Shown: positions 44,713 to 58,433 of the stretch, in pieces
Layout: each line of letters opens with the position of its first letter
Position numbering within the stretch: the stretch's first letter is position 1
Assembly: GCA_019448215.1 (NCBI GenBank)
Contig: CP080408.1
Location: 62,001 to 126,000 of the forward strand
DNA from: Thalassovita mediterranea
GTDB lineage: Bacteria > Pseudomonadota > Alphaproteobacteria > Caulobacterales > Hyphomonadaceae
Reading direction: 5' to 3'
Length of the DNA: 64,000 nucleotides
Position numbers and translations under genes: made by a program
The notes under the pieces: model-generated
Told to the model about the DNA's origin: nothing
The model's database searches: none
The model's input: the letters and a program-made list of their open reading frames with translations, nothing else

Positions 44713-44752
44713 CGTCATCCCGGTTTCCGCAAAGCGGAACGCCGGGACCCAG
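44713..44752. repeat. CGTCATCCCGG/CCGGGACCCAG palindromic unit
   Basis: A single unit with the same ends as those around 56954-57690. It reads CGTCATCCCGG at one end and CCGGGACCCAG at the other, with an inner hairpin TTCCGC-AAA-GCGGAA. It lies 11 bp after the stop of the AceE-like gene. The unit has no T-tract. Confidence 0.78.
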
Positions 44753-44793
44753 ATTGGGAAACCTCTCAAAGTCCGCATGGTGAGCAAAGCATG

Positions 44794-56953: not shown

Positions 56954-56993
56954 CTGGGTCCCGGTCTTTCGCTTTGCGAAAACCGGGATGACG
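56954..56993. repeat. Single CTGGGTCCCGG/CCGGGATGACG palindromic unit
   Basis: Inverse orientation of the unit at 44713. It has an inner hairpin TTTCGC-TTT-GCGAAA. It stands 28 bp before the first 101-bp pair and 75 bp upstream of the nuclease start. Confidence 0.78.
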
Positions 56994-57020: not shown

Positions 57021-57121
57021 CGTCATCCCGGAAGCGGTGCAGCCGCTATCCGGGACCCAGTTGGGGCGGCACAATTGAAAGTTTTGGGTCCCGGCTCTCC
57101 CCCCGGTCGGCCGGGATGACG
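57021..57121. repeat. 101-bp inverted pair of palindromic units, left copy
   Basis: It consists of a forward unit (CGTCATCCCGG to CCGGGACCCAG) and an inverted unit (GGGTCCCGG to CCGGGATGACG) separated by a 25-base spacer. The outer 11 bases are perfectly inverted. It is 95/101 identical to 57524-57624, and ends 28 bp before the GIY-YIG gene. Confidence 0.88.
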
Positions 57122-57149
57122 AGAACGAGATTACAATTGCCTCGGTGAG

Positions 57150-57500
57150 ATGTTCTGCGTATGTTCTAGCACGCGAAGCTCCTGGGTCTACATCGTCACC
57201 AATAAACGCAATGGCACCCTTTATACCGGCGTCACCAGCGATCTGGTGGGCCGTGTCTGGCAGCACAGGCACGGCTATTTCGCCGGCTTCAGCCGAAAGT
57301 ATGGATGCACGCAGCTCGTCTGGTTTGAAACCCATGACGACATCAAAGAGGCCATCGCTCGCGAAAAGCGTATAAAGCGCTGGAAGCGGGCCTGGAAACT
57401 GGAACTGATCGAGACCGGCAATCCTGACTGGCGCGACCTGTATAGCGAACTGACCGAGTGGGTCCCGGATAGGCCGTCCAGATTCATCGCGCCGATGTAG
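57150..57500 (+). CDS. GIY-YIG nuclease-superfamily protein flanked by 101-bp repeats
   Basis: Single-domain GIY-YIG endonuclease-like protein (YhbQ/COG2827 type). It has 116 residues. The GIY-YIG signature reads WVYIVTNKRNGTLYTGVTSD (VYI 13-15, YTG 25-27), with catalytic Arg35 in VGRVWQHRHG, Glu72 in IAREKRIKRWKRAWKLELIE and Asn91 in TGNPDWRDLY, so key residues are present. The last 14 residues, EWVPDRPSRFIAPM, read through the sequence TGGGTCCCGGATAG, an end of the local repeat, so the native C-terminus may be nearer NPDWRDLYSEL. It lies between two near-identical 101-bp repeat pairs at 28 and 23 bp distance. Confidence 0.82.
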   Translation: MFCVCSSTRSSWVYIVTNKRNGTLYTGVTSDLVGRVWQHRHGYFAGFSRKYGCTQLVWFETHDDIKEAIAREKRIKRWKRAWKLELIETGNPDWRDLYSELTEWVPDRPSRFIAPM

Positions 57501-57523
57501 AGGAGGTGACCCGGCTCACTACC

Positions 57524-57624
57524 CGTCATCCCGGAAGCGGCGCAGCCGCTATCCGGGACCCAGTTGAGGCGGCGCAATTGAAAGCTCTGGGTCCCGGCTC
57601 TCCCTCCGGTCGGCCGGGATGACG
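57524..57624. repeat. 101-bp inverted pair of palindromic units, right copy
   Basis: Same length and orientation as the left copy, with six substitutions. It starts 23 bp after the GIY-YIG stop codon. Like the left copy it can fold into two hairpins or one long cruciform arm. Confidence 0.88.
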
Positions 57625-57649: not shown

Positions 57650-57690
57650 CGTCATCCCGGAATTTGCGCCAGCAAATATCCGGGACCCAG
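57650..57690. repeat. Single CGTCATCCCGG/CCGGGACCCAG unit
   Basis: Forward unit with the inner hairpin TTTGC-GCCA-GCAAA. It lies 25 bp after the right 101-bp copy and 65 bp before the next gene. Confidence 0.78.
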
Positions 57691-57755: not shown

Positions 57756-58433
57756 ATGATTGCCGACGGATTCATCAGGGACAGCTTTAACGCCATGATC
57801 GGCGCGCTTGTGTGCGCGGCCGAGCGGGCGGGGCTCATCACGCGCCATGCCCCGGTGACCCGCGCGGCGGCCCGCCGCTTCATGTCGAGGCTGCGCCAGC
57901 TGGAAACGCTCCTGCGCCGCCTCCTCGTCCTGATGGCGGCGGAGCTGGATATTGCAATTGATCCGCTCCCTCATCCTGAGCCTGTCGAAGGGCCGGCGAA
58001 GGCCGGGGTCTCATCCAACCAAACCGCTCCCTCCCAAACCACCCGTGCTCATCCTGATGGAGCCTGCCCCGGCGCAGGCCGGGGTCGAAGGACGAGCACG
58101 GGCACAAGCTTCCCCCTCCTCCGCATCCTGCGCCCCTACACCGCTGAAGACGCGGCCCGCCTCAGCGCCCTGCCGCGCCGTGCACCTCGCCCCGTCGATG
58201 AAACACTGCTGGTGCACCGCTACTGCACCCTCCTGAAACACCTGCAGCACCCCGAGCGGCTCGCCCGGCGCATGGCGCGCCACCTTGCAAGGCTGCGCGC
58301 CGCCGGAGAGATCCGCCCCACCTGCGCGCCGCAGCCCGGCCTGCACCGGCTTTCGCCCGAACTCGGCGCCCTGGCGGCCTGCCTGCCCGCCCTGATCGCG
58401 GCCGCGCTCTCTGACTGGTACGACACAGGCTAG
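57756..58433 (+). CDS. Hypothetical protein with in-frame palindromic repeat insertions
   Basis: It has 225 residues. The N-terminal part (RRFMSRLRQLETLLRRLLVL) and C-terminal part (LLKHLQHPERLARRMARHLA, PELGALAACLPALIAA) are helical and Arg/Leu/Ala-rich, while residues about 72-115 correspond exactly to repeat DNA. That part encodes HPEPVEG (a common product of the CATCCTGAGCCTGTCGAAGG repeat) and AHPDGACPGAGRGRRTSTGT from a second repeat. The gene remains open through both. Family not recognised. The insertions suggest a tolerant loop between two helical lobes. Confidence 0.65.
   Translation: MIADGFIRDSFNAMIGALVCAAERAGLITRHAPVTRAAARRFMSRLRQLETLLRRLLVLMAAELDIAIDPLPHPEPVEGPAKAGVSSNQTAPSQTTRAHPDGACPGAGRGRRTSTGTSFPLLRILRPYTAEDAARLSALPRRAPRPVDETLLVHRYCTLLKHLQHPERLARRMARHLARLRAAGEIRPTCAPQPGLHRLSPELGALAACLPALIAAALSDWYDTG
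57970..58100. repeat. Two palindromic repeats inside a coding region
   Basis: First repeat: CTCATCCTGAGCCTGTCGAA at 57970-57989, followed by a CCGG-rich foldback. Second repeat: 58046-58100, with near-inverted arms GTGCTC and GAGCAC and an inner CTGCCCCGG/CCGGGG stem. Both belong to the CATCCTGAG...TCGAAGG class found again at 58445-58560. Confidence 0.75.

Follow-up and report, generated by a model that had tools for sequence, protein, structure and literature searches.

A nuclease gene between paired hairpin repeats

The 64,000-nucleotide stretch of the Thalassovita mediterranea genome analysed here (contig CP080408.1, positions 62,001 to 126,000; hereafter the window) contains a gene for a small GIY-YIG nuclease that lies between two inverted pairs of a tagged hairpin repeat (Table 1). 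On recheck, the coordinates given in the initial annotation of this locus proved exact: the open reading frame (ORF) is separated by 28 bp on the left and 23 bp on the right from two direct copies of a 101-bp sequence, which agree at 95 of 101 positions (a repeat search gave 93% over 105 nt). Each copy consists of two hairpin units in inverted orientation bearing a CGTC tag, and the two copies fold with z scores of -3.7 and -4.15. The 41-nt unit to the right of the second copy forms a hairpin whose CGTCA and CCCAG ends remain unpaired (folding z -6.1).

The units belong to the CGTCATCCCGG family. All seven sites proposed by the initial annotation, including the single units listed at 56954, 57650 and 44713, were recovered, with exact CGTCATCCCGG matches at 44713, 56983, 57021, 57111, 57524, 57614 and 57650. 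Allowing one mismatch, the window holds 12 matches compared with 2.25 expected, a number reached by none of 100 shuffles. Genome-wide, 24 copies of CGTCATCCCGG were counted against 2 of a reversed control pattern, although part of the 24 lie, by eye, in coding sequence without a hairpin.

The assignment of the gene product to the GIY-YIG superfamily also held, as the protein matches PF01541 (E=3.2e-17) and carries the conserved Y, Y, G, R and E. Residues Y14, Y25, G27, R35, H39 and E72 are retained in 126-128 of 128 aligned proteins; by comparison with I-TevI, the catalytic residues are presumably among them. The nearest orthologue (L108, from Henriciella isolate UWMA-0297) is 90% identical, with nonsynonymous and synonymous differences per site (pN and pS) of 0.049 and 0.282, and, judged by such divergence, the window nuclease is under purifying constraint. 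The UPF0213 GIY-YIG proteins are not known to have a repeat association. They include the nearest solved structures by sequence (PDB 1zg2 and 1ywl), which are distant from the window protein (profile E=2.8e-18 and 6.2e-12).

Table 1 Repeat units and nuclease gene, in coordinates of the window
Feature	Positions	Strand	Basis
GIY-YIG nuclease gene, 116 amino acids (aa), single catalytic domain	57150..57500	+	PF01541 E=3.2e-17
Left inverted pair of hairpin units, REPIN-like, CGTC tags outermost	57021..57121	.	Repeat comparison and folding
Right inverted pair of units, direct copy of the left pair (95/101)	57524..57624	.	
Single hairpin unit, CGTCATCCCGG family	56954..56993	-	
Single hairpin unit, CGTCATCCCGG family: tag CGTCA, stem-loop, tail CCCAG	57650..57690	+	
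Distant single unit, CGTCATCCCGG family	44713..44753	+	Exact tag at 44713; partner arm 44741-44751 with one mismatch; outer end estimated
Half unit within the 3' end of the nuclease ORF, complementary to 57549-57562	57459..57472	-	Inverted repeat

The 3' end of the nuclease ORF holds a half unit of its own repeat (57459-57472), and the C-terminal tail of the protein is therefore partly repeat-encoded.

The host genome, a single contig of 3.22 Mb, encodes six GIY-YIG paralogues, five of which (L061, L062, L064, L065 and L066) are bracketed on both sides. The five brackets are five different repeats, with scores of 5-14 across loci against 20.5-87.5 between the two flanks of the same gene. The sixth paralogue, L063, is unbracketed and has, by eye, a palindrome downstream.

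Bracketing and repeat type across GIY-YIG loci

We compared the 350 nt to the left with the 350 nt to the right of each GIY-YIG match in both orientations, called a locus bracketed at a score of at least 18, and used sliding positions within the same regions as controls. Matching repeats were found on both sides at 32 of 47 loci from the host genome and its close relatives (11 of 2146 control positions), at 60 of 79 testable loci from named relatives of the window protein (32 of 4007) and at 40 of 65 testable further loci of the order (7 of 1346). After removal of three duplicates (L152/L080, L163/L150 and L240/L113), 129 of 188 distinct loci were bracketed, against 50 of 7499 sliding positions. 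The 47 loci are all the matches of their search; 80 named relatives were fetched and 66 further loci of the order tried, one in each set being too short. Forty of the further loci represent about a quarter of the GIY matches listed across the order, taken nearly in E-value order, with G077 and G028 added to them, and a further set of genomes (26 loci used) was added, for their many CGTCATCCCGG copies, leaving out a second fragment in G099, tiny fragments in G034 and two loci already included.

The layout at the window locus is not a local accident, as bracketing was found at 129 of 188 loci but in only about 1% of the controls. The initial annotation had likened it to REPtrons, in which a REP-associated tyrosine transposase (RAYT) gene is bracketed by repetitive extragenic palindromes (REPs), with a different nuclease fold in place of the transposase, and the comparison has stood at this wider scale. 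The named hosts are alpha-, beta-, gamma- and deltaproteobacteria, together with a few metagenome bins labelled, as deposited, Chloroflexi, Planctomycetaceae and others. The flanking repeats have the head TCATCC in 67 of 132 cases (7.4% of random segments) and the head CGTCAT in 45 of 132 (6.3% of random segments).

REPs are mostly extragenic, and small genes might come to lie between them simply by sitting in repeat-rich intergenic space. We regard this as barely credible here: in the same regions, other ORFs called by a crude prediction rule were bracketed in 8 of 710 cases, or 2 of 234 for those of at most 600 bp, and a third single-domain GIY-YIG subfamily, which has an HTxK motif and serves as a near-negative control, was bracketed at 2 of 9 loci. 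Chance bracketing was accordingly rejected on the sliding-position and other-gene controls. The HTxK loci (L103-L107, L268, L276, L277 and L279) form a set mostly without bracketing repeats.

Enzymes that resemble each other tend to be flanked by repeats that do so too, including at unrelated sites. Across 127 bracketed loci, repeat similarity tracked protein identity (Mantel rho 0.37, 0 of 999 permutations). Among pairs of loci without a detected shared neighbouring ORF, similar repeats were present in 1 of 880 pairs at 25-35% protein identity, 74 of 188 at 65-75%, 52 of 66 at 75-90% and 9 of 9 at 90% or more, the top bins being inflated because the named loci (L108-L187) were counted as separate genomes though some share one, and by the three duplicates. 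We consider it likely that these loci are REPtron-like modules, in each of which a GIY-YIG nuclease recognises its own CGTC-tagged hairpins.

The RAYT/REP system (REPtrons, REPINs and the GTAG superfamily) offers the closest parallel in layout. The two share tagged hairpins, often in inverted pairs, repeats dispersed in the genome, and the position of the enzyme gene between repeats of its own family; several REP families with family-specific REPtrons can occur in one genome (Di Nocera et al. 2013, PMC3733652), and several nuclease/repeat pairs likewise coexist here. The systems differ in the tag, which is GTAG in RAYT-associated REPs and CGTC-like here (GTCAT, CTCAT), and in the enzyme, a HUH/Y1 tyrosine transposase in the one and a GIY-YIG protein in the other. 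RAYTs have been proposed as the movers of GTAG REPs (PMC3733652), so a RAYT or another transposase could in principle move the present repeats while the GIY-YIG genes hitchhike. This is very unlikely, as the repeat type follows the GIY-YIG subtype and CGTC repeats are reported to have no association with transposase genes and no dedicated transposase (PMC3733652). In addition, a profile search for Y1_Tnp (the RAYT-type domain, and the only transposase domain searched) gave no match in the host genome or in 25 others of the genus, leaving 3 of 29 genomes with the domain; the positive controls, E. coli and Caulobacter, gave matches. A RAYT as mobiliser in this genus was rejected on the basis of this search.

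Repeat number and history of the sites

Copy number was compared with gene presence for three repeat families, using p values that ignore phylogeny. CGTCATCCCGG was counted over 120 genomes of the order, 70 of which fall into classes: 9 with a GIY-YIG locus bracketed by CGTCATCCCGG, 3 with CGTCATCCCGG on one side only, 37 whose fetched loci lack it and 21 without a GIY match (one of them, G111, by inference). The other 50 have GIY matches at loci outside the analysis, and not every paralogue was fetched. The first class had a median of 37 further copies, compared with 14 in the 37 genomes and 7 in the 21 gene-free genomes (p=9.5e-4 and 3.6e-5), a comparison in which the sampling by CGTCATCCCGG richness favours high-count genomes among the gene-bearing classes.

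The repeats of two other loci, L005 and L006, were followed within the genus, with gene classes drawn after the identities were known. A subtraction of two or three copies per genome was applied to the counts, slightly too many in some genomes, and was redone for L005 from the listed positions. A gene at least 60% identical to L005 occurs in 4 of 29 congeners, where its repeat is present in 14, 15, 21 and 54 copies, compared with at most 15 elsewhere in the genus (p=5e-4). An L006-type gene (61-100% identical) occurs in six congeners with repeat counts of 5, 6, 17, 21, 29 and 34, the other 23 having a median of 1 and a maximum of 24 (p=0.003). Cross tests of the gene of one of these families against the repeat of the other were not significant (p=0.24 and 0.16).

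A 32-aa GIY-YIG remnant in G067 (C1:3063858-3064041; L324) lies between two inverted L005-type units, in a genome with a count of 15. If it is counted as L005-type, the five carriers have the five highest counts (p=1e-4); this assignment follows the flanking repeats, the remnant itself being 47% identical to L005 over 43 aa and 57% to L006 over 42 aa.

At the window site, the gene and its units are present in G002 and G130. Empty sites of the kind the initial annotation had in mind occur in four congeners: G004, G128, G023 and G005 align on both flanks, but the gene is missing and the intergenic site contains no CGTCATCCCGG unit. In G128, one unit lies within the neighbouring ORF, and G023 has other genes at the site. 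Four more genomes (G053, G129, G067 and G136) align partly and have no unit there either.

These sites bear on the idea that the gene is a homing parasite, inserting into pre-existing repeats of other origin and using them as safe sites. Many homing endonucleases contain a GIY-YIG domain (weak PHROG matches), and five of the six host paralogues do lie between repeats. We nevertheless find such homing improbable: the four empty congener sites lack the CGTCATCCCGG repeats as well as the gene (one site, a small sample), and repeats are more numerous in genomes that carry the cognate gene, which passive targets would not predict.

In Pleomorphomonas sp. NRK KF1, the repeat-gene-repeat arrangement is found at three loci of one contig, in aligned blocks of 637-684 bp, and besides this block the loci have only repeats in common within 6 kb. 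The copies differ with pS 0.16-0.21 and pN 0.017-0.022; each is therefore constrained, and none is recent.

Beyond the neglect of phylogeny in the p values, several observations weigh against a nuclease paired with, and acting on, its own repeats. Two kinds were named by the initial annotation as grounds for refutation, homologues without flanking repeats and abundant repeats in genomes lacking the gene. On the first, 59 of the 188 loci have no matching repeats on both sides, although in 33 of the 59 one flank contains an inverted repeat (found at 218 of 2886 control positions). On the second, the 21 genomes in which no gene was detected still hold 0-18 CGTCATCCCGG copies, and the count in G029 is 114 although the only gene detected there carries a different repeat. 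G028 and G072 have 59 and 46 copies with genes that carry other or no matching repeats, and G099 has 49 with only a broken gene. The L006 repeat reaches 24 copies in G135 and 18 in G002 without its gene, and lowering the L005 cut-off to 55% adds G133 and G008, whose counts are 1 and 0 despite the presence of the gene (p=0.006). Of 1164 genome pairs compared, the best protein pair came top in repeat score in only 552, lost in 488 and tied in 124 (mean difference 1.8). Finally, the Pleomorphomonas copies are not recent and each site also aligns with a locus from another strain or bin, so that they give no sign of recent mobility.

Known repeat systems and a proposed mechanism

In the survey that defined them, CGTC REPs have a CGTC tag, a short hairpin (stem of 8-9 bp, loop of 4-5) and an unpaired tail mostly fitting CCA; they occur mostly as inverted pairs and mostly in alphaproteobacteria, and the neisserial CGTC-1 repeats are the dRS3 elements (PMC3733652). 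The window units resemble this superfamily in their tag, hairpin, unpaired tail, multiple copies and inverted pairs, and differ in their longer, interrupted stems. In the survey, CGTC REPs have no dedicated transposase, whereas here the repeats bracket GIY-YIG genes; the two were compared by host name and tag anatomy, and the term GIY does not occur in the survey (PMC3733652). Bracketed homologues are present in four hosts or host groups listed there for CGTC REPs (PMC3733652), among them Sinorhizobium meliloti, Novosphingobium aromaticivorans and Azospirillum lipoferum. The Novosphingobium repeat starts with CGTCGCC and has no GTCA head. The homologue of Rhizobium sp. CIAT894 is bracketed as well, that of Photobacterium sp. 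GJ3 is not. In A. lipoferum 4B, the gene (L348:2486-2779) lies with tagged repeats between sufB and sufC, apparently inside the suf operon.

The Neisseria gonorrhoeae homologue is 53.9% identical to the window protein over 89 aa, lies among 16 dRS3 units in 6.3 kb and has CGTCATTCCCG tags on both sides. In a report of 2025, the GIY-YIG nuclease Ssn of N. meningitidis is reported to cleave single-stranded DNA at repeats of this kind, and the gonococcal homologue may be Ssn. Ssn and the window protein are both single-domain GIY-YIG proteins, and the latter probably belongs with the Ssn-type family. That report may anticipate part of the present finding, whose novelty is reduced by this probable membership.

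Ssn suggests the most serious competing explanation, a nuclease that serves its host by cutting incoming or exposed single-stranded DNA at cognate repeats and thereby tunes uptake or recombination, the repeats being kept as useful targets and mobility being a by-product or absent. The position of the gonococcal gene among dRS3 units, the reported activity of Ssn and the purifying constraint on the window gene and the Pleomorphomonas copies fit such a role. However, profile matches number 0-8 per genome (fragments and other subfamilies counted), 21 of the 120 genomes examined in the order having none at all, and remnants and broken copies occur, which gives the family a selfish or recently domesticated look; the repeat-gene-repeat unit at three sites of one genome also speaks against it. 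We hold a host-serving nuclease to be the less probable account.

Judged on titles and the beginnings of abstracts, the articles listed in searches of the open-licence PubMed Central (PMC) literature showed no link between GIY-YIG proteins and REPs, nor the multi-family pairing and copy-number links described here for Ssn; we do not claim their absence elsewhere in print. The passages of PMC12306157 examined mention no transposase, RAYT or nuclease.

In the REPtron-like module that we favour, the gene of a small GIY-YIG nuclease would lie between copies of its own target, the CGTC-tagged hairpin repeat. Every subtype of the nuclease would recognise a separate family of tag plus hairpin, so that several nuclease/repeat pairs could coexist in one genome. 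Where replication, recombination or uptake exposes single-stranded DNA and the hairpin forms in it, the nuclease may nick or cut the repeat, either in the unpaired tag or close to it. As GIY-YIG enzymes are not known to form a covalent intermediate when they hydrolyse DNA, strand transfer would have to be supplied by the host, in contrast to RAYTs. Host recombination might then repair or re-copy the break, spreading and homogenising the repeats, sometimes together with the bracketed gene, and repeats that persist without a gene would be relics. The nuclease would in this way spread or maintain its repeats, as the initial annotation had suggested; we infer both the cutting and the mobilisation from sequence patterns.

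A broader proposal, which we regard as evenly balanced, is that the CGTC REP superfamily as a whole has its missing dedicated enzymes in the GIY-YIG nucleases, which would form a second REP-propagating class, convergent with RAYTs, with one subtype per repeat family. It would extend to the neisserial dRS3 elements, the alphaproteobacterial GTCATCCCGG repeats and their relatives of the CTCATCCTGAGC and CTCACCATG types. The 2013 survey left open what makes or moves CGTC REPs (Di Nocera et al. 2013, PMC3733652), and several families now have a candidate enzyme, whose target becomes predictable, being read from the repeats around its gene. The pairing also provides a possible reason why one alphaproteobacterial genome carries several unrelated-looking palindromic repeats. 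If the proposal is true, REP-like genome parasites arose at least twice with different nuclease folds, and a large set of nucleases with readable specificity is at hand.

Three other roles were considered and rejected. Anti-phage defence found no PADLOC match; carriage as phage cargo was set aside as there were only weak phage matches (12 records, all below 60% identity and none covering 80% of the query); and carriage as plasmid cargo was set aside as 32 of 33 plasmid records with a match were typed as non-mobilizable. Six plasmid records that we examined are replicons of 0.49-3.7 Mb. One of these, a Neisseria gonorrhoeae record of 2.17 Mb (L345), is filed among the plasmids but by its size looks like the chromosome.

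Downstream of the nuclease gene, a 225-aa ORF extends from 57756 to 58433. Within this ORF, at about the same position, congeners (L301, L302 and L303) carry, by eye, differing repeat families, of the CTCATCCTGAGC, CTCACCCCGGCG, CTCATCCCCGCG and CGTCATCCCGG types, as if these had been swapped inside the gene.
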